Source: a bacterium
GTDB taxonomy: Bacteria; Arandabacterota; Arandabacteria; Arandabacterales; Arandabacteraceae
Length of the DNA stretch: 7,882 bases
Assembly: GCA_029933125.1 (NCBI GenBank)
Contig: JAOZOU010000027.1
Location: 1 to 7,882 of the forward strand
Direction: 5' to 3'
This document shows positions 1 to 7,882 of the stretch, one piece after another. A model generated the notes under the pieces. That model was given only the letters and a program-made list of their open reading frames with translations, was not told the origin of the DNA and made no database searches. Position 1 is the first letter of the stretch, and each line of letters opens with the position of its first letter. A program made the translations under genes and the position numbers.

Positions 1-114
1 TCCCCACTGGCAGTGTTTCGTCCATCAGGGGAATCGCTGGTATATCATACATTTCAGCACAAAGCCAAGAGATATAAGCAGTGGCATTTTGAAGATAGAA
101 AGGATTATCCATGA
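1..114 (+). CDS. 3' end of an upstream gene (last 37 codons), possibly part of the ubiquitin-like operon
   Basis: An open frame enters from the left edge and ends at a TGA that overlaps the ATG of the JAB gene (ATGA), so the two genes are very probably co-translated. The visible tail is rich in aromatic and basic residues (VYHTF, KRYKQWHFEDRKDYP) and has no domain I can recognise. In known prokaryotic E1/JAB operons this position is commonly held by an E2-like or ubiquitin-like gene, so this could be the C-terminus of such a protein. That is inference from position only: no E2 catalytic cysteine region and no di-glycine tail is visible, and the protein does not end in Gly-Gly. Confidence 0.6.
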   Translation, partial: SPLAVFRPSGESLVYHTFQHKAKRYKQWHFEDRKDYP

Positions 115-920
115 ATCTTTTGCAAAGAATTATTGAGAAAATTCCAGACCACATTGTTGAAAAGATCCGTCTTCAGATGGATAGCAGTGTGGGCATGGAA
201 AGGAGGGATGAAGCAGTGTTGACACCAATGCAGATTTCAAAGGCAAGGCTGGAGAACAGGAGGGACATCATAGACCATCGGTTGGATGGATTTTTAAAGA
301 ACATCAGGACCTACTGCATCCAGAACGATCTGGGGAATGCCAGAATAAGCTTCGAAAATCTGCTGACTCTGAGCGAGATAAGGGCAATAGTTGAGGAGAT
401 AATAAGCGCTGTGGATGATTGGAAGGCAGTGGACGCCGAAAAGGCTGTGCCGACATATACGGCAGGCTCATGGTTTCTCTATGACTGCTTCGATTATCTG
501 AGCAAACAGCCGGAGGAATCCGTTCATTTTGTTACAGGGGTTCAGTTGGGAAATATCTACATACTTGACCGCATGGTGACCTTCAAGATGGACATTCAGA
601 CAATGACAAGGGCAAGTGGCGATCACTTTTCCTCTCACAACGCCCTGATAGAGATGGATGAATACGGCCACAGACTTCTTGCGTACTTTCACATTCATCC
701 AGGCAAGGGAGAATCAATTACACAGCCTTCGCATATAGACATGGATTATCAAACAAATCTTGACAGAGGCGGTTATCAGGCAATAGGGGGAATCTTCTCA
801 AGGGACGGCTATCTGAGGTTCTTCCCTGAAGACAAAAGGTTTGAGGTGGAAATCTACGGAAAGGGGGTGGAGAAAATTGAGGACAGACTCTTTCGTCTTA
901 TCAAGGCAGAGACCCGTTGA
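111..920 (+). CDS. JAMM/JAB-domain metalloprotease (deubiquitinase-like)
   Basis: A 269-aa predicted zinc isopeptidase of the JAB/MPN fold, expected to cleave ubiquitin-like modifiers from their targets or mature the modifier precursor. The JAMM zinc site is complete: Glu135/Glu136 precede the strand VHFVTG, then H194-I-H196-P, S207 and D210. HxH and S-x2-D are separated by 10 residues, three more than in RadC/Rpn11-type motifs. The following GYQAIGGIFSRDGYLRFF is a typical core strand pair. Residues 1 to about 115 form a mostly helical, charged N-terminal extension of unknown role. The start is supported by AAAGGA at 99-104, six bases upstream, and by the ATGA overlap with the preceding gene. 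The E1-like gene follows 22 bases after the stop, which places this enzyme in a ubiquitin-like conjugation pathway. No signal peptide is seen, so it should be cytoplasmic. The family call is firm; the substrate is unknown. Confidence 0.9.
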   Translation: MNLLQRIIEKIPDHIVEKIRLQMDSSVGMERRDEAVLTPMQISKARLENRRDIIDHRLDGFLKNIRTYCIQNDLGNARISFENLLTLSEIRAIVEEIISAVDDWKAVDAEKAVPTYTAGSWFLYDCFDYLSKQPEESVHFVTGVQLGNIYILDRMVTFKMDIQTMTRASGDHFSSHNALIEMDEYGHRLLAYFHIHPGKGESITQPSHIDMDYQTNLDRGGYQAIGGIFSRDGYLRFFPEDKRFEVEIYGKGVEKIEDRLFRLIKAETR

Positions 921-942
921 GTACATCACCGAAGGAATAGTG

Positions 943-1680
943 GTGAGAAGTGGTGAGACAGGGGTTACTGCCAGGCAGGAGATAGTCCCCGGTTTTGACC
1001 AGAAAGTTCTGGATAATCTGGCGGTCAGCCTCATCGGTGGAGGGGGATTGGGTGGAGAGATAGGGGAGGGTTTGGTGAGAAAGGGAGTGGGGAGGATAAG
1101 CATATTCGACGGCGATGCGGTGGAACCGTCAAATCTAAACAGGCAGTTGTTTTTCAAGGAAGACCTCTACAGGAACAAGGCTATATGTCTGGCTAAAAAT
1201 CTCTCAAGGTTCGCAATCAAAAAGTCGAGAATAATCGGTTATCCGTTCTGGTTTCAGGAGGCGGTTGAAAGGGGCATGGATGTGGACTGCGACGTTGCTG
1301 TTTGCGGGGTGGACAACAACGAGACCAGAGTGTTCGTCTCCAGACTCTACAGCGAAAGAAAAACCCCCGTTATCTTTACAGCAGTGAGTATGAATGCCAA
1401 TCACGGCTATGTCTTTGTTCAGGAGCCTGAGAAGGCATGCTTTGGCTGCCTGTTCCCTTATGCAGTTAAAGACAGGACCTCGCCCTGCCCGAATTCTCCT
1501 GCAGTAAAGGATATACTCAAGGTGATGGGGGGTATTGTGATTTATGCGATTGACACCTTGTTTATGGGGAGAAAGAGAAGCTGGAATTTCAAGCAGGTTT
1601 TCCTTGCTGGCTTTGTGAATGATATTACCGCAACCATAGAGAAAAAAGGGGACTGCCCCCTCTGCGGGAGTGTTAAATGA
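943..1680 (+). CDS. E1-like ubiquitin-activating / ThiF-family adenylyltransferase
   Basis: Predicted to adenylate the C-terminus of a ubiquitin-like protein and pass it on as a thioester. Numbered from the GTG at 943 (245 aa), it has the Rossmann glycine loop G32-G38 (GGGGLGG), D56 and D58 of the ATP/Mg site, the VEPSNLNRQ motif with the conserved Arg67, Lys79, and Asp124-Asn125. A zinc site is formed by C166-x2-C169 and C238-x2-C241. C182 in SPCPNSPAV sits where E1 enzymes carry the catalytic thiol. It is short, like ThiF/MoeB, and lacks the extra half and the ubiquitin-fold domain of eukaryotic E1s. I chose GTG 943 because GAAGGA (931-936) lies six bases upstream and the ARQEIVPGFDQ motif then starts near the N-terminus, as in the family. 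GTG 940 and TTG 841 (279 aa, overlapping the JAB gene) are alternatives. Its stop overlaps the next start (ATGA). Confidence 0.9.
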   Translation: MRSGETGVTARQEIVPGFDQKVLDNLAVSLIGGGGLGGEIGEGLVRKGVGRISIFDGDAVEPSNLNRQLFFKEDLYRNKAICLAKNLSRFAIKKSRIIGYPFWFQEAVERGMDVDCDVAVCGVDNNETRVFVSRLYSERKTPVIFTAVSMNANHGYVFVQEPEKACFGCLFPYAVKDRTSPCPNSPAVKDILKVMGGIVIYAIDTLFMGRKRSWNFKQVFLAGFVNDITATIEKKGDCPLCGSVK

Positions 1681-2096
1681 TACGGCTTTCTGAAACAAAG
1701 GAAATCATCTGCGATGAGCAGGGCAAGGTTCTGAGGGAAAGCGGGGTCACGTTCTTCCTGAGTGAACAGGGGATCTTCGAGGGCAAGGCCGAGAAATTCT
1801 TCTACTGTGAATCCTGCGGAAGCCTCATTAAATCGATAGAGGCAGTGAGCGGACGCTGTTCCAGATGCGGAAGGCTCTGCTGCGATAAATGTTCTTCCTA
1901 CTGTGAGGGGTCTCTGGTCTGCAAAAATTGTTGCTATGTTGCAGCCCACAATATATCAGAGGCAGACAGAGGCATCTACTGTTTCTCCTGCAAGCTCAGA
2001 TACAGGCTCGGCAGGGGGATAAGGAAGATATTCCAGAAGCTGAAATCGACCCGCGGTTCCTCAGCAGGAAGACTCCCAGCAGGGAGGAATCAATGA
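1677..2096 (+). CDS. Cysteine-rich binuclear treble-clef (RING/FYVE-like) zinc-finger protein
   Basis: A 139-aa protein with 13 cysteines, 12 of them between residues 44 and 105. The pattern C44-x2-C47-x13-C61-x2-C64-x4-C69-x2-C72-x9-C82-x2-C85 is that of a two-zinc cross-braced treble clef. The RCSRCGRLCCDKC stretch looks much like the core of FYVE and RING-type fingers. A further C102-x2-C105 may bind a third metal or belong to a separate knuckle. Residues 1-40 look like a small beta-rich domain; the end (106-139) is basic. Fingers of this class have been described in prokaryotic ubiquitin-like operons and proposed as E3-like adaptors, and this one is coupled to the E1 gene by ATGA. The E3 role is inference; DNA or RNA binding or a structural role is possible. 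The start is supported by GGGAG at 1666-1670, six bases upstream. Confidence 0.75.
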   Translation: MIRLSETKEIICDEQGKVLRESGVTFFLSEQGIFEGKAEKFFYCESCGSLIKSIEAVSGRCSRCGRLCCDKCSSYCEGSLVCKNCCYVAAHNISEADRGIYCFSCKLRYRLGRGIRKIFQKLKSTRGSSAGRLPAGRNQ

Positions 2097-2380
2097 GACT
2101 GATTATTCTCTTAATAGCTCTTCTTGTCCTGATGGTGTTCTCGCCCTCGAGCTTTGCACGGCTTCTTCGTATCTTCAGGCCTCTTCTGACAGTTCTCGGG
2201 ATTTTCCTCCCGGAGATTATCGGGGCTTTCTGCGGTCTCCGTATTCTTGCATATCTGAGGCACCATGATCCCAGTGGAAGCTTTGCCAGATATCCCCTGT
2301 TTTTCGTGCCCCTCGTCATAATAATAGGTGCCTATATTGGAAGGAGGTTATTGAATGTCTTTTTTCTCTGGAGATGGTAA
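2093..2380 (+). CDS. Small multi-pass membrane protein of unknown function
   Basis: A 95-aa hydrophobic protein that I do not recognise. Residues 2-16 (LIILLIALLVLMVF region), roughly 30-50 (PLLTVLGIFLPEIIGAFCGL) and about 68-82 (FFVPLVIIIGAY) are likely membrane segments. They are separated by short basic stretches (ARLLRIFR; LAYLRHHDPSG; GRRLL), which suggest which loops face the cytoplasm. The first segment could instead be an uncleaved signal anchor. The ATG at 2093 is favoured because AGGGAGG (2081-2087) lies five bases upstream and the start overlaps the preceding stop as ATGA. Reading further upstream in this frame would run through the zinc-finger gene and is not credible. The gene overlaps the ATPase gene by 26 bases. 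By context it may tether the finger protein or the ATPase to the membrane, as coupling proteins of transfer systems are; this is inference. Confidence 0.75.
   Translation: MRLIILLIALLVLMVFSPSSFARLLRIFRPLLTVLGIFLPEIIGAFCGLRILAYLRHHDPSGSFARYPLFFVPLVIIIGAYIGRRLLNVFFLWRW
2341..2347 (+). promoter_or_regulatory. Strong ribosome binding site of the ATPase gene
   Basis: AAGGAGG, a near-perfect anti-16S match, lies seven bases before the ATG at 2355 and inside the end of the membrane-protein gene. It fixes the ATPase start and shows that the 26-base gene overlap is genuine. Confidence 0.8.
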
Positions 2381-4370
2381 CAGAGCTCTTGATGCATTGA
2401 CGGAGCTCGCTGCACTCAGCAACCTTGACAGGAACGAGGGCGTCAGGCGGGCTGTCCTTGCCGCAGAGGCAGACAGCAGACATCTGAAAAGGCTGGAGCT
2501 GATCCTCACTGCCAACGCCTGGGCTCAGCACAATCTGATTTCACCGAGACCGTATGAATCTCCTCCACCGGAGGAAATCTATGGAGATCTATCCCTCGGC
2601 TCTGAGTTCTATACGGGTGAAAGGGTTGGCCTGCCCATTGGAGAGACCCACGTCCTCGCCGCAGGGTCAACTGGATACGGGAAGACGAACTTTCTCAGAA
2701 ATAGCTGTCGATCTCTTATTGAAAGAGGCATCAGATTCATGGCCATAGATTTTCTCGGCAACCTTGGCGACCTGTCCATGTCCTACGAAAGCGTTGTGAC
2801 TATACCGTGGGAGAGGTTTGGGGAGAATCTCTTCAATGCACCGGAGAACATGGAGCAGAGAAGCTGGGACAACATCGCTATGGAGGCGTTCTGCTATTCA
2901 TACAGCCTGATGGTCGGCTCGCAGAACTTCCTTGCAAGAAGCCTGTTTGATCTTGAGGAGCTCTTCGAGCAGATGGGGAACGGCGAAAAAGTTGTGCTTG
3001 CCGATGTTGGCGATTCAATACAGAAGAGGCTGGAGAAGGGGAGGCTCGGCGAGAAGGACTACGCAGTGAGGGTGCTCAACCGCATAAGAGCCTTATCAAT
3101 AGAAACAAACGGCATGTTCGACCATCAGAGCGGCTTCATGAAAGAGCTTGTTCAACGCAAGGATTTGAATGTAGTCTGGGATCTCTCAGGTCTCTCCGAG
3201 GCGACCCAGTGCTTTTTCACCGTCTATCTCCTTACCTATCTGTTCTTCCACAAGCTGTCAAACCCGGACCAGAGGGAGACATGTGTGGTTCTCCTTGATG
3301 AATGCGCCCATGTGTTTGACATCGGCAAGACCTACCAGAGCCAGATGCTGAACACCCTGATCAGGAGGGCAAGGAATGCAGGCCTCCTGCTCATCTCTGC
3401 CACGCAGGAGTACAGCCGACTTTCACATCCTCTCAAGGCCAACTGTGCCTGTTCTCTTTTCTTCAGAACATTTGAGGGGAGAGACCTGTGGGAGATTGGC
3501 AAGAGCCTGTCGCTGGATGCCTCTGAACAGGAGAAGCTCAGGGTGATAACCCAGCTTCAGCCGGGGGTTGCTGTGTGCAGACTGCCGCAGTGCAGTAAAC
3601 CCTTTCTGGTGAAAACCGACCTCTTCAAACCCAGCTTCAACCGAAGGGTCATGGAGCAGAACGATGAGATGCTCAACGAGCTGGTAGCGATGATCGTCCC
3701 CCGCTCTAATCTGATGGAGAGGATACACACGAAGAAAGACAGAAACGATGACGAGCTGAGATTTCTCCAATCGATTGTAAACGAGCCTCTGTCAGGTAGC
3801 GTGGAGAGGAGCGAATCGTTGGGTCTCAGCAATTCCAGAGCTAACAGAATAGTGAACATTCTTGAGTTCAAGGGATTCATCGAACCGGTGAAGGTCAAAA
3901 CATTCAGGAGGGGAGGGCAGAAGGTCTTATACGAAATCACGGAGAAGGGAAGAAAATGGCTCAGCGAATGCGGTGTAAAAACAAATCATCCGTTGCGCGG
4001 GAGCATCAAACATCTCTATTACGCCAGGCTGATAGGCGATTATTTTGAATCCATGGGTTGCGAGGTAAGATTTGAGGGGAGAAGCGGAAACGGCAACGCT
4101 GATCTAATCATAAGAAACGGTTCGCGGAGCACAGCGGTTGAAGTTGAACTTGGCACGGACGGACGCTACGCCATTGGCAACATCGCCAAGAATCTGAGGG
4201 CTGGCTTCGACGGGTTGATAATAGCCTGCGAGGAGGAGAAGATGATGGAAAAGCTGAACAGAGAGGTCTCCAGACTGGACAGAGAAGTGAGGAGCAGGGT
4301 CTCAGTAAACATGATAGAGGACTTCGCCTCCAGAGCTTCGTTTCAATTCCCGCCGAAAAAAAAGAAATGA
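2355..4370 (+). CDS. HerA/VirD4-like ATPase fused to winged helix and PD-(D/E)XK-like nuclease domain
   Basis: A 671-aa predicted DNA-translocating ATPase. Residues about 85-430 form the P-loop core: Walker A GSTGYGKT (104-111), then MAIDFLGNLGDL, Walker B VVLLDE (D315, E316), RRARNAGLLLISATQE (337-352) with the sensor Gln351 and nearby arginines, and the closing strand FLVKTDLF. This order fits the HerA/FtsK/VirD4 superfamily, which pumps DNA or couples it to a channel. Residues about 465-538 are a winged helix (LGLSNSRANRIVNILEFKGFIEP, then a wing and YEITEKGRKWL). Residues about 550-625 resemble a PD-(D/E)XK fold: D583 in NADLII and E596-V-E598 in AVEVELG. The usual lysine is Glu598; Lys612 in the next helix might replace it. 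The protein ends in PPKKKK. The AAGGAGG at 2341 and the overlap with the membrane-protein gene fix the start. It could serve in conjugative transfer, element maintenance or defence. Confidence 0.85.
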   Translation: MSFFSGDGNRALDALTELAALSNLDRNEGVRRAVLAAEADSRHLKRLELILTANAWAQHNLISPRPYESPPPEEIYGDLSLGSEFYTGERVGLPIGETHVLAAGSTGYGKTNFLRNSCRSLIERGIRFMAIDFLGNLGDLSMSYESVVTIPWERFGENLFNAPENMEQRSWDNIAMEAFCYSYSLMVGSQNFLARSLFDLEELFEQMGNGEKVVLADVGDSIQKRLEKGRLGEKDYAVRVLNRIRALSIETNGMFDHQSGFMKELVQRKDLNVVWDLSGLSEATQCFFTVYLLTYLFFHKLSNPDQRETCVVLLDECAHVFDIGKTYQSQMLNTLIRRARNAGLLLISATQEYSRLSHPLKANCACSLFFRTFEGRDLWEIGKSLSLDASEQEKLRVITQLQPGVAVCRLPQCSKPFLVKTDLFKPSFNRRVMEQNDEMLNELVAMIVPRSNLMERIHTKKDRNDDELRFLQSIVNEPLSGSVERSESLGLSNSRANRIVNILEFKGFIEPVKVKTFRRGGQKVLYEITEKGRKWLSECGVKTNHPLRGSIKHLYYARLIGDYFESMGCEVRFEGRSGNGNADLIIRNGSRSTAVEVELGTDGRYAIGNIAKNLRAGFDGLIIACEEEKMMEKLNREVSRLDREVRSRVSVNMIEDFASRASFQFPPKKKK

Positions 4371-4493
4371 AAAAAGAAATATAAAAAAGAAGAGGTAAGA
4401 GAGGAGAGATCGCCTTCCTCCCTCTTTCAGCTCTTACGAATATGAATATGAATATATATAAAAAAAGGGAATCAAAGATTGTGAAAAGGAAAA
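4371..4493. other. A-rich intergenic segment after the operon
   Basis: No gene. The segment starts with A-rich purine runs and contains a hairpin-capable stretch: 4397-4401 plus 4403-4406 can pair with 4418-4426 (nine pairs, one bulged base). It ends in an AT-rich block with a hexamer repeat and TATATATA plus an A run (to about 4466). It could hold a promoter for the structured region to its right, or an easily melted DNA segment of an origin. No clear -35/-10 pair is visible. Confidence 0.4.
4438..4455 (+). repeat. Three tandem GAATAT hexamers
   Basis: GAATAT occurs three times head to tail and runs directly into ATATATA and an A run. Short AT-rich tandem repeats of this kind occur in origin unwinding elements and promoter spacers; nothing here decides between them. 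Confidence 0.6.
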
Positions 4494-4561
4494 GGTGACA
4501 GCCTGAATCGCGGCGTTCCTTCAGAAGAACATGGTCATTCCGTCAGCTGCGGTCTGTCACC
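4494..4561. repeat. Inverted repeat 1 (8-bp arms) with nested hairpin
   Basis: GGTGACAG at 4494-4501 and CTGTCACC at 4554-4561 are perfect complements enclosing 52 bases. Inside, GTTCCTTCAGAAGAAC (4515-4530) forms six pairs with one bulged C and a three-base loop. Read on the minus strand, the stem is followed by TTTTCCTTTT, so it could also end leftward transcripts. Confidence 0.6.
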
Positions 4562-4607
4562 CATTCCACAAAAGACCGGTTCAGGAGATGAAGACTTTTG
4601 TGGAATG
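4562..4607. repeat. Perfect 13-bp inverted repeat with 20-base loop
   Basis: The arms 4562-4574 and 4595-4607 are exact reverse complements over 13 bases. The loop (4575-4594) contains the palindrome ACCGGT. A perfect 13-bp dyad is very unlikely by chance in 484 bases and is the strongest single signal in the gene-free region. Confidence 0.85.
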
Positions 4608-4614
4608 ATCATGA

Positions 4615-4640
4615 ACAGCTTCCGGTGAAGGGGAAGCTGT
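4615..4640. repeat. Perfect 9-bp inverted repeat with 8-base loop
   Basis: ACAGCTTCC (4615-4623) and GGAAGCTGT (4632-4640) are exact complements around the loop GGTGAAGG. It forms a compact, GC-balanced hairpin seven bases after the 13-bp repeat. Confidence 0.75.
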
Positions 4641-4644
4641 GAGC

Positions 4645-4674
4645 GCCTGTCTGAGTCCAGAACGGCAGGCTTTT
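4645..4674 (+). terminator. Weak rho-independent terminator-like hairpin
   Basis: GCCTGTC (4645-4651) pairs with GGCAGGC (4664-4670), seven pairs including one G-T, around a 12-base loop, and is followed by TTTTGT. The T tract is short, so termination would be inefficient. A competing hairpin, GCAGGC/GTCTGC around TTTT (4665-4680), could replace it. Confidence 0.35.
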
Positions 4675-4854
4675 GTCTGCGTATCTCCGCCCGGGAATTC
4701 CCTTTCCCGTTCCTTCGTTAAGCTGCGGCAGTTTTCCTCCTCCAGCCTCTGAAAACCAGCCGAACAGTATGGAAACCCCTCTCTTTGCTTATGGCTTCAG
4801 CATCTCTGATCTCGCGGCTCGTGTATACCCACACATGCATTAACGGCACAGCGC
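4675..4854. other. Gene-free leader before the primase gene
   Basis: No gene and no convincing promoter. It contains CCCGGG overlapping the 10-bp palindrome GGGAATTCCC (4690-4702). The short strings CGTTCCTTC and AGCTGCGG occur here (about 4709-4730) in the same order as inside inverted repeat 1 (about 4514-4552), so part of this leader may be a diverged partial copy of that element. No ribosome site is visible directly before the ATG at 4855. Confidence 0.4.
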
Positions 4855-6021
4855 ATGGGCAAACCACATAAAACAGGGGACAGAAATATCAGCATGGCTA
4901 TGTATCTCAACACATATAACCTGATCGATTTCGCCGCGCAGTATCAGAAGGGTTTCAGAAACAACATCATTCAACTGTCCGGGGTCAGTGAGATGGTGAG
5001 GAAGTACAGAAGTTTTGAATGCTACAGCACATACTTCCTCTTCCCTGCGGAGATCCGCTCCTACATGAACACGAACCTGAGAAACAGCAGGCCGTCGCTG
5101 TCTGGCTACGGCGGCAGGGTTTATGCTACATATCTGCCCGTGGACATAGACTCAGAAGACCTCAGCGAAGCATTGGACACAGCAAAGGGCTTTGTGGAAT
5201 ATCTTGATGATCTGGGAATCAGCGAACCAGCAGTCAACGCCTACTTCTCCGGATCAAAGGGGTTTCACATCATGATCGACGCAAGGGCCCTCGGAGAGGT
5301 AGAGCCGGCAGAAGACCTTCATATGATCTTCTCGGAGATGAGAAAAAGGCTGTCAAAGCGTTCAGGCATAACGAAATGCATAGACTACGGCATAAAGGAC
5401 AAAACCAGACTCCTGAGACTGCCAAACACCATCAACAAAAAAACCAATCTCTACAAGATTCCGCTCAGAGCAAAAGAGCTATTCAAGCTAAGCGTAAACG
5501 ACATCAGAAGAAAGGCAAGAACCCCTGCAAACATCTACTTCACCGACCCATCTGGATTGATCCCCACATGGCATGTTGAACCGAACGAGTGGCTGTCAGA
5601 ATTGTATAACGAAGCGTTAGCTACAGCGAAAACAAGGCATAAACAAGACATTACAAACATCAGGGTGATCGCTCCGTCTGGGCAATGGGAGCAAACGCTT
5701 TGCCCTGCCCTGTGGAAGATGATGCGTGGTCATATACCTGAAGGCTACCGCAACGAATGTGCAGTGAGATTGCTTTCAGCTTTTCGGCTTTCAGGGACAA
5801 TTAGAGAAAGAGCGACAGAGCTGATCCTCTCATGGAACAAAAGGAACGATGAGCCACTGCCGGAGGAAGAGCTATTAACGACCATTGGCTCAGTTTATAA
5901 CGCGAATCCTCCCTACAGCTACGGCTGTTTAGACCATATAATCAGCAGGTTCTGTCCCTTTGATAACATAAGCAAATGCAGGCATTATCGGCGTTACAAG
6001 GCTTTTTCTATGATACGATGA
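4855..6021 (+). CDS. Archaeo-eukaryotic primase (AEP) family primase/PrimPol with PriL-like cysteine-bearing C-terminus
   Basis: A 388-aa enzyme predicted to synthesise primers, perhaps also to extend DNA. The AEP active site is visible: D97-I-D99 in LPVDIDS, the SGSKGFH motif with His138 (132-138), and Asp177 in KCIDYG followed by KTRLLRLPNTINKKT (183-197), the usual nucleotide-binding third motif. The C-terminal half (about 280-380) is helical, with C283 in LCPALWKMM, GYRN (297-300), then C358, C367 and C375. This order resembles the four-cysteine Fe-S helical domain of PriL and related PriCT modules; C302 is an extra cysteine. No helicase domain is fused. ATG 4855 lacks a ribosome site; ATG 4894 or 4900 (MAMYLN), with AGGGGA at 4875-4880, could be the true start and would lose no motif. 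The structured region upstream may be its template or origin. The stop overlaps an ATG (6018). Confidence 0.88.
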   Translation: MGKPHKTGDRNISMAMYLNTYNLIDFAAQYQKGFRNNIIQLSGVSEMVRKYRSFECYSTYFLFPAEIRSYMNTNLRNSRPSLSGYGGRVYATYLPVDIDSEDLSEALDTAKGFVEYLDDLGISEPAVNAYFSGSKGFHIMIDARALGEVEPAEDLHMIFSEMRKRLSKRSGITKCIDYGIKDKTRLLRLPNTINKKTNLYKIPLRAKELFKLSVNDIRRKARTPANIYFTDPSGLIPTWHVEPNEWLSELYNEALATAKTRHKQDITNIRVIAPSGQWEQTLCPALWKMMRGHIPEGYRNECAVRLLSAFRLSGTIRERATELILSWNKRNDEPLPEEELLTTIGSVYNANPPYSYGCLDHIISRFCPFDNISKCRHYRRYKAFSMIR

Positions 6022-6497
6022 GGGGTGAATACATCATAAGACAGAAGAGCCTCAAGAGCAATAGCAATGTTAGGCTGAAAGCCCTTGACCGACTCATCAT
6101 AAAGGCAGCCCTCAGGAGACGCAAAAGACTTCAAAAAAGGGTTGAAAAGAGGGTTGACTTGAGGTCAACCTCGGGTTATAATAAGCAAAACCTTTACTCT
6201 TTAAGAGACGATGGAAAAGATTTTGGCGGGCTACATAAGGGTTTCCACCGAGATGCAGGCGGAGAGGGACTCCCTGCCCAATCAGGAAGAGAGGATAACC
6301 TCGTTTGCAAAGGCGAGGGGCAAAGCGTTCAGAATATATATGGACAGGGGCATATCTGCAAGGGACAAGGAGAGGCCAGCCCTTCAGAGGTTGATCTCCG
6401 ACATAGAAGACGGAAAGATAGACACCGTTGTCGTAACGAAGCTCGACCGCATCACCAGAAGCCTGAAAGATCTCATTTATCTGAAAGAGCTCTTTGA
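6018..6497 (+). CDS. Doubtful small basic ORF starting inside the primase stop (ATGA)
   Basis: The ATG overlaps the primase TGA in the same ATGA arrangement seen at the true gene junctions upstream. The first 45 or so codons (MRGEYIIRQKSL..., LRRRKRLQKRVEKR) have the AGA/AGG, ATA and AAG use of the neighbours and read as a basic helix. After about position 6190 the frame only crosses the recombinase N-terminus and looks non-coding, so either the frame is chance or a small gene has lost its end. No domain is recognised, and the spacer's promoter and operator lie inside it. Confidence 0.2.
   Translation: MRGEYIIRQKSLKSNSNVRLKALDRLIIKAALRRRKRLQKRVEKRVDLRSTSGYNKQNLYSLRDDGKDFGGLHKGFHRDAGGEGLPAQSGREDNLVCKGEGQSVQNIYGQGHICKGQGEASPSEVDLRHRRRKDRHRCRNEARPHHQKPERSHLSERAL
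6152..6170. promoter_or_regulatory. Palindromic operator-like repeat over the -35 box
   Basis: GGTTGAC (6152-6158) and GTCAACC (6164-6170) are perfect 7-bp inverted arms around TTGAG. The left arm contains most of the -35 box. A second half-site-like AGGGTTGA occurs at 6138-6145, twelve bases upstream of the copy at 6150-6157. A dimeric repressor binding here would block the recombinase promoter. No regulator gene is in the window. Confidence 0.55.
6154..6182 (+). promoter_or_regulatory. Sigma-70-type promoter of the recombinase gene
   Basis: TTGACT (6154-6159), a 17-base spacer and a consensus TATAAT (6177-6182). Transcription would start near 6189-6190 and leave a leader of about 20 bases before the ATG at 6211. 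It separates the recombinase from the primase transcript. Confidence 0.75.
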
Positions 6498-7882
6498 GAA
6501 ACACAATGTTGCGTTCATTTCATTGGCCGAGACCATTGACAGCTCGACGCCCATGGGTCGTTTTTCGTTCTATGTTCTTGGACTGGTTGCCCAGCTTGAG
6601 AGGGAGGTAACAGCCGAGCGAGTAGCTGAGGACATGAAGATTAGAGCGAGAAGGAAGAAGTGGAACGGCGGGGTCATCCCCTACGGTTTCACCTCGCAGG
6701 CAAGGCTCTACAGGGGGTGGCTTCAAAACGAGGCAGAGAGGCTTTCTGAAGAAGACGGCAGGCCGGTGAACGAGATAGTCAGGGAGATCGAGAGAGACCC
6801 GGAGGCAAGAAGGAAGGCCAGAGCATACGCTTCTCAGCTAATACCTCAGGCAAAGAGGCTCTTCGTTGACATGAAGGAGGCAGAGGTCGTCAGGAAGATC
6901 TATGAGCTGTATCTTCAGCTTAAGAGCTTCAGGGCTGTCGTCCATTGGCTGAACACGCTTGGCTTCAGAACAAGGAACGGAGAGCACTGGTCGTCAACAT
7001 CGGTTAAGAGAATCCTCCAGAACCCCATGTATTACGGAGCGCTGACCTACAACAGGAGAAAGAGCTACGGCAAGACATCAAGACCAAGGCCAGAGGAAGA
7101 GCACATCATCGTTGAGAATGTATTCGAGCCGATTGTATCCAGAGAGCTATACGATGAGGTTCAAGACATAATCAGCTCCAGAAAGAACAAGCCATATCCT
7201 AAAAGAAATTCTCCCTATCTCCTGTCCTGCTTAGTAAAATGCGGGTTCTGCGGCTCAACCATGTACGGCTACACCCTCCACGATCACAGAAAGGAAGGCA
7301 GAATTTATAAGTATTACAGATGCAACGGCCATGTTTCCAAAGGCTCATCAGTCTGTCAGGGGAACACGATCGATATGGACACGCTCAACAACCTGATAGT
7401 TAATGAGCTTAAGAGCTTCAAAACAGACCCGGAGAAGCTGAAAGAAAGGCTAAAGGATTATCAGATAGAATACGACAGGCAGACGAGGCCGTTACTCAGC
7501 CAGAAAAAAGACATCAAACAGAGGTTGGAGAGGATAGAGAAGAGGATCTCCCGACTGTTTGAGCTTTATGAGAACGAGCTTATTGACAGATGGGAGTTCG
7601 CCGAGAGGAAGGCATCCATAGAGGACGAAAAGAGAACCCTGCAAAAAGAGCTTGAGAAGGTGAATTCAAACCTTTCTGCCAGCGAGCTTAAGGACTTCGA
7701 TCTCGATTCGATCCTGAACAGCTTCCACAGCCTTGCCGACATCTATGACGAGCTCGACTTCGAGGGGAAAAGAGAGCTAATTCAAACGGTCATCAGCGAC
7801 ATCACAGTCAGAAGGCATGACATAGAATACAGCATATACGCAATGCCCGAATCTGTTGCTGTCTACGACCGCACGGTTGCCC
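6211..7882 (+). CDS. Large serine recombinase / site-specific integrase (3' end outside window)
   Basis: 557 codons are visible and the frame is still open at the right edge. Residues 1 to about 145 are the resolvase catalytic domain: GYIRVST with nucleophile Ser12, RGISARDKERPALQRL, VVVTKLDRITRSL with Arg80 and Arg83, and LGLVAQLEREVTAERV. The recombinase DNA-binding domain follows (WNGGVIPYGF 151-160; KRLFVDMKEAEVVRKIYELYL; SSTSVKRILQNPMYYGAL 261-278). A zinc ribbon uses C344-x2-C347, C371 and C382, and a long coiled coil covers about 405-490. This is the phiC31/TnpX-type layout of enzymes that integrate and excise phages, ICEs and transposons. About 55 charged residues (162-216) lie between PYGF and KRLFVD where most relatives have a short link. 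The ribosome site is poor (AAGAGA 6203-6208). It has its own promoter. Confidence 0.95.
   Translation, partial: MEKILAGYIRVSTEMQAERDSLPNQEERITSFAKARGKAFRIYMDRGISARDKERPALQRLISDIEDGKIDTVVVTKLDRITRSLKDLIYLKELFEKHNVAFISLAETIDSSTPMGRFSFYVLGLVAQLEREVTAERVAEDMKIRARRKKWNGGVIPYGFTSQARLYRGWLQNEAERLSEEDGRPVNEIVREIERDPEARRKARAYASQLIPQAKRLFVDMKEAEVVRKIYELYLQLKSFRAVVHWLNTLGFRTRNGEHWSSTSVKRILQNPMYYGALTYNRRKSYGKTSRPRPEEEHIIVENVFEPIVSRELYDEVQDIISSRKNKPYPKRNSPYLLSCLVKCGFCGSTMYGYTLHDHRKEGRIYKYYRCNGHVSKGSSVCQGNTIDMDTLNNLIVNELKSFKTDPEKLKERLKDYQIEYDRQTRPLLSQKKDIKQRLERIEKRISRLFELYENELIDRWEFAERKASIEDEKRTLQKELEKVNSNLSASELKDFDLDSILNSFHSLADIYDELDFEGKRELIQTVISDITVRRHDIEYSIYAMPESVAVYDRTVA

Follow-up and report, generated by a model that had tools for sequence, protein, structure and literature searches.

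Gene content of the window

The window analysed here is the entire contig C25, 7882 bp long. It belongs to a draft genome of 3.2 Mb, from a bacterial lineage with few sampled members, and all genes of the window lie on the + strand. At its left edge, an open reading frame (2..136) holds the C-terminal 44 residues of a predicted E2-like protein, the 5' end of which is lost at the contig edge. It is followed by genes for a JAB/JAMM metalloprotease (111..920), an E1-like adenylating enzyme (877..1680), a Cys-rich finger protein (1677..2096), a small membrane protein of 95 aa with several hydrophobic helices as judged by hydropathy (2093..2380), and a HerA/FtsK-type DNA translocase with DUF87/HerA and CedB/CedD matches (2355..4370). 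Further downstream are a prim-pol gene combining an archaeal PriS-like domain with PriCT-1 (4855..6021; PriCT_1 E=1.6e-9, phage primase PHROG E=6e-25) and a large serine recombinase gene (6211..7882; Resolvase 9.5e-40, Recombinase 2e-30, zinc ribbon 5e-12), which is cut by the contig end at 7882.

The E1 gene has several possible starts. At TTG 877 there is a good ribosome site, and a gene beginning there would overlap the JAB gene in the manner of the relatives; GTG 940 and 943 are further candidates. With TTG 877 as the start, the first six genes of the window overlap in series. The E1 and finger genes are coupled by an ATGA overlap at 1677-1680, just as originally predicted, a second ATGA at 2093-2096 joins the finger gene to the membrane-protein gene, and the latter overlaps the translocase gene (2355-2380). 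In the gap between the translocase and prim-pol genes (4371-4854), a 13-nt inverted repeat without mismatches (4562-4574/4595-4607) may serve as an origin or operator.

Profiles built without the window sequence, with 200 shuffles per ORF as controls, recovered the E1 (365 bits), the JAB protein (242 bits), the translocase (81 bits) and the E2 tail (63 bits, E=1.4e-18) of the window, with zero matches in the shuffles.

The mobile-element setting proposed in the original prediction is borne out by the co-occurrence of serine recombinase, prim-pol and translocase in the window, and by an integrase nearby in six of the eight loci with this gene set (the window, L007, L011, L012, L031 and L032). 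Integrase, prim-pol and translocase together constitute the module set of the integrative and conjugative elements of actinomycetes (AICEs, PMC3218068), and the window likewise unites a serine integrase, a prim-pol and an FtsK/HerA-class translocase in one element. It differs from AICEs in that a PriS-like/PriCT-1 primase is found instead of PF09250, in the Ubl (ubiquitin-like) cassette, in its hosts, which belong to unrelated phyla, and in the translocase: FtsK (PF01580) stays below the cut-off, and the protein is HerA-like instead, with a C-terminal winged helix and a nuclease-like domain that is a separate gene in the relatives. The serine recombinase genes of L012 (11695-13365) and L031 (reverse-complement 4903-6498) abut a miaB-like and a truncated comEC-like gene, which makes these candidate integration targets.

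Related loci and their distribution

A JAB search of 386 genomes found this protein in two other lineages, a scan of 84,980 species genomes returned four loci, one of which is the same record as an already-found genome, and two further loci came from 285 searched genomes in the Omnitrophota group. Altogether eight loci from about five phylum-level groups combine a Ubl and predicted E2, JAB, E1, a HerA/TraG-type translocase, and zinc-finger and membrane proteins. Every one of the eight JAB loci also carries E1, an E2-like protein and the translocase, and a Ubl occurs in all loci in which this region is uncut. Occurrence is sporadic (3/386 sampled genomes, 3/285 in the Omnitrophota group, and 1/10 and 1/44 in two other phyla), and viral contigs, plasmids and phages that were searched yielded no members of the unit. 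Two viral E1 matches (L026, L027) were rejected as members, as they group with PRTRC-type E1 and are found without the unit. These PRTRC-like genes lie at 9983-10774 (L026, adjoining a Dam-like methyltransferase) and 9980-10681 (L027).

Gene order divides the loci into two arrangements. In L007, L009-L012 and L031, the contig of which begins inside the finger gene, the order is membrane protein, finger, HerA, CoiA-like nuclease, Ubl-E2 fusion, JAB and E1. In the window and in L032 the cassette comes first and the translocase after. The divergent unit of L032 (reverse-complement 5359-12800; plus-strand 3300-10741) has two DNA methyltransferases between JAB and E1, and further comprises a TraG/TrwB coupling-type ATPase, Replic_Relax, a double-zinc-ribbon membrane protein and a serine recombinase. 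In L009, L010 and L011 the operon is preceded by a small gene resembling sigma-70 region 4 (1678-2091, 4709-5134 and 5477-6004, respectively); it is possibly a dedicated regulator.

Predicted enzymes of the Ubl pathway

The JAB protein possesses all JAMM residues, Glu136 and H194-x-H196-P-x9-S207-x2-D210. The motif had been described as intact, and indeed all five residues are invariant in 8/8 homologues. The spacing from H to S is 10 residues versus the canonical 7, a trait common to the whole family. The top PDB profile match is BRCC36 (E=0.0024).

The E1 consists of one adenylation domain, about 250-270 aa in length (ThiF domain in the window, E=5e-31), with the ATP loop GGGGLGG, an NRQ motif and a Cys in a PC motif (C182 counted from GTG 943). 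The originally proposed active site is thus present, and its candidate catalytic Cys is invariant across the family. In the E1s of L009, L011 and L031 both zinc-binding Cys pairs have gone together, and the catalytic Cys is kept. In the E1 tree the eight proteins form one clade (support 100/100), within which the window and L032 pair (90/81); PRTRC-type E1s are the nearest group (89/86), the clade itself being separate. Across phyla, family members share 49-56% identity with the window E1, compared with 24-35% for paralogues, which points to horizontal spread.

The nearest PDB matches of the E1 are UBA5 and ThiF, and a single-domain enzyme of MoeB/ThiF/UBA5 type would also suit a ThiS/MoaD-like sulfur-carrier pathway with JAB maturation, serving cofactor, cysteine or tRNA thiolation and not protein tagging; some prokaryotic JAB-E1-Ubl clusters do accompany sulfur metabolism (PMC1779556). 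We regard this as very improbable. Clustering with the ThiF/MoeB of cofactor biosynthesis, named beforehand as counter-evidence, was looked for, and the window E1 does not group there: MoeB/ThiF-like paralogues, including those of the window's own genome, fall outside the eight-E1 clade, which among the sampled paralogues rules out a cofactor origin. Moreover, the eight loci showed no gene for sulfur metabolism, and the Ubl is fused with an E2-like domain whose Cys is invariant.

The original prediction called for a search for an E2 gene upstream, and the reading frame at 2-136, which it missed, is the predicted E2 C-terminus. This tail (PHWQCF..., with the predicted catalytic Cys) shares 58% identity with the L008/L011 homologue in one alignment and 55% in another. 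Ubl and predicted E2 are fused in six loci, separate in one (L032, where the E2-like protein has an N-terminal transmembrane segment and the Ubl stands alone) and cut off in the window, whose own Ubl would lie beyond the contig edge and was not found elsewhere in the binned genome. The model of the L009 Ubl-E2 fusion (gene at 6900-7622; mean pLDDT 68.7) shows two ordered domains, the second at about residues 124-225, and a disordered linker at about 71-123. Its Ubl domain has the fold of ubiquitin, with a VIA Z of about 10-11 over 65-72 residues, and the top Foldseek matches include the bacterial Ubls of 8tyx, a complex with a deubiquitinase, and of 8tyz, a complex with E1 and E2; the Foldseek and VIA matches of the fusion model are taken up by the Ubl domain, and the comparison with this bacterial system covers the Ubl. 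Every Ubl of the family, as seen in the relatives, ends at an invariant Val-Gly with the Gly C-terminal, and the stand-alone Ubl of L032 (77 aa) ends ...MEVGK, one residue past VG. This suggests maturation of the Ubl by JAB.

The identity of the second domain is less straightforward. No family member gave a Pfam or PDB sequence match in this domain. PF14460 (Prok-E2_D) was matched neither in the window's genome nor by any member against Pfam, and a comparison with one PRTRC-B protein was negative (hhalign probability 0.1%). PF14455 (CEHH) had zero matches anywhere, controls included, and is therefore uninformative. Given this lack of a sequence match to UBC, and three residues (H, C, H) that could bind metal, the HxxCF...HF domain might be a metal-binding or other partner to which no E2 role belongs, the Ubl being passed directly from E1. 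We consider this rather unlikely. The Cys of HxxCF and the downstream His are invariant in the family, and the model shows a three-strand meander, H-x-x-Cys at an active-site-like position, a hairpin bearing the conserved His 12 residues further along, and a long C-terminal helix. A conserved His downstream of the Cys likewise characterizes the E2s of operon type 6d (Iyer et al. 2006, PMC1779556), and the BilB E2 uses a CEHH motif with Cys and downstream His (PMC11354881). Based on context, the invariant Cys and the predicted secondary structure, the domain is quite probably an E2.

If the E2 is accepted, a complete cycle can be proposed, all catalytic steps of which we infer from conservation, motifs and clade membership. 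JAB would cleave behind the invariant Val-Gly and so release the Ubl from the E2 fusion or from a one-residue tail. The E1 would adenylate the Ubl Gly and then hand the Ubl to its own Cys, from which the predicted E2 would accept it on the Cys of HxxCF, aided by the downstream His, and attach it to a target. JAB could strip the Ubl from the target again, and thus serve in deconjugation as well as in maturation.

The finger protein, possible targets and biological meaning

The original prediction credited the system with its own candidate ligase, the Cys-rich finger protein. Five CxxC pairs (C44/47, C61/64, C69/72, C82/85, C102/105) are present, and the cross-brace spacing is reached by 0.005% of 20,000 shuffles, in agreement with the two-zinc pattern noted earlier. 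This spacing, together with the ATGA coupling to the E1 gene, is what would recommend the finger as the E3 ligase of the cascade. However, CxxC-x13-CxxC-x4-CxxC-x9-CxxC is FYVE-like and does not match the RING pattern CxxC...CxHxxCxxC...CxxC. The profile and structure matches, weak overall (Z 4-6, E 0.008-0.2), are mainly to FYVE-type fingers of Rab effectors and endosomal proteins, more than to RING: rabphilin (E=0.008), melanophilin (Z 5.7) and RUFY (Z 4.8), on a low-confidence model (pLDDT 59.5). Prokaryotic RING and treble-clef domains were reportedly covered by a survey in 2011.

Comparison of gene order across homologues also speaks against the ligase, because finger-like genes of the relatives adjoin membrane and HerA genes and not E1, an adjacency peculiar to the window. 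Counterparts of the membrane protein (132-146 aa) adjoin the finger gene in L007 and L009-L012, the metal ligands of the finger are eroded in L009, L010 and L012, and L032 has a double-zinc-ribbon and transmembrane protein in its place. In our reading the finger is an adaptor or membrane component, and the E3 role, unsupported here, is improbable. The window finger matches that of one relative (BLASTP E=0.002) with a common C-x2-C-x4-C-x2-[CH]-x3-C run, and the sole strong finger match in the 285 Omnitrophota-group genomes comes from a genome that also carries JAB. The homology between the window finger and those of the relatives was nevertheless downgraded to weak, since it was seen in an alignment including the window and the profile without the window scored 0.4 bits.

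The broader claim of a modifier system fares better than that of the ligase: with a predicted E2 at the contig edge, Ubl in the relatives, and an E1 apart from cofactor MoeB/ThiF, a Ubl conjugation and deconjugation system in a mobile element is well supported, and neither of the two outcomes named beforehand as counter-evidence was obtained. In our best explanation (probability roughly 0.6) the window carries the conjugation half of a Ubl modifier system that belongs permanently to an integrative mobile element and would target the element's own transfer or maintenance proteins. The genes and how they are conserved, the fold predicted for the Ubl and the mobile surroundings are observed; target and purpose, like the E2, we infer from context. 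The constant partners of the cassette are the HerA/TraG-type translocase and the zinc-finger and membrane proteins, and the most economical targets are thus the element's own proteins for transfer or maintenance at the membrane.

Alternatively, the unit could be an anti-phage or anti-plasmid defence cargo, in which the Ubl would tag invader proteins, HerA and the nuclease would act as effector, and methyltransferases would mark self. L009, L010, L012 and L032 have DNA methyltransferases within or next to the operon, which together with matches to defence profiles in PADLOC (E1 to E1-E2 profiles, 3e-15; HerA to MADS mad8, 4e-13) keeps this rival open, and a nuclease-like gene or domain accompanies HerA. 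On the other hand, the matches to ThiF and HerA profiles are broad, at superfamily level, the proteins also fit the transfer and replication core of an element, and the TraG/TrwB coupling-type ATPase and Replic_Relax of L032 are transfer-type genes. A defence role is conceivable, if doubtful, and we slightly favour modification of the element's own transfer or maintenance proteins.

Operons of JAB, E1, E2 and Ubl on plasmids and ICEs have been on record since 2006 (PMC1779556), and the unit fully matches none of the five operon types given there. It is set apart by a Ubl that in most loci forms one protein with an E2-like domain of invariant Cys, a single-domain E1, a separate JAB, a FYVE-like finger, a membrane protein and a HerA-type translocase. 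PRTRC or type 6d systems (Iyer et al. 2006, PMC1779556) share separate JAB and E1 genes, an E2-like protein and Ubl, and include the nearest E1 group. In contrast, JAB and E2 of the present unit have no significant similarity to one PRTRC locus, the Ubl is mostly fused to the E2, and a HerA/TraG-type translocase is always present. Type 6e of the same authors (polyUbl, inactive E2, JAB-E1, zinc protein) resembles the unit in its Ubl-E2 fusions and a possible treble-clef zinc protein in the operon, but its E2 is without Cys, which is invariant here, JAB and E1 are separate here, and the zinc motif is another. BilABCD and CBASS Cap2/Cap3 follow the same bacterial E1-E2-JAB logic, with a Ubl in Bil; BilD, however, has two lobes and a Cys domain, as opposed to the single adenylation domain of the present E1, and a defence role of the unit described here is hypothetical. 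Our literature search, with many subscription papers outside reach, found no published description of the unit, and an earlier description is possible.

Among the Ubl cassettes of plasmids and ICEs, this compact, conserved unit with its constant DNA translocase narrows the candidate substrates to a small set. The Val-Gly junction together with a natural stand-alone Ubl sharply predicts where JAB maturation would occur. Tagging of proteins may aid the movement or survival of a mobile element. More speculatively, a bacterial Ubl that has spread among uncultured phyla might tag the DNA-transfer machinery of its own mobile element and thereby switch transfer or replication on and off.
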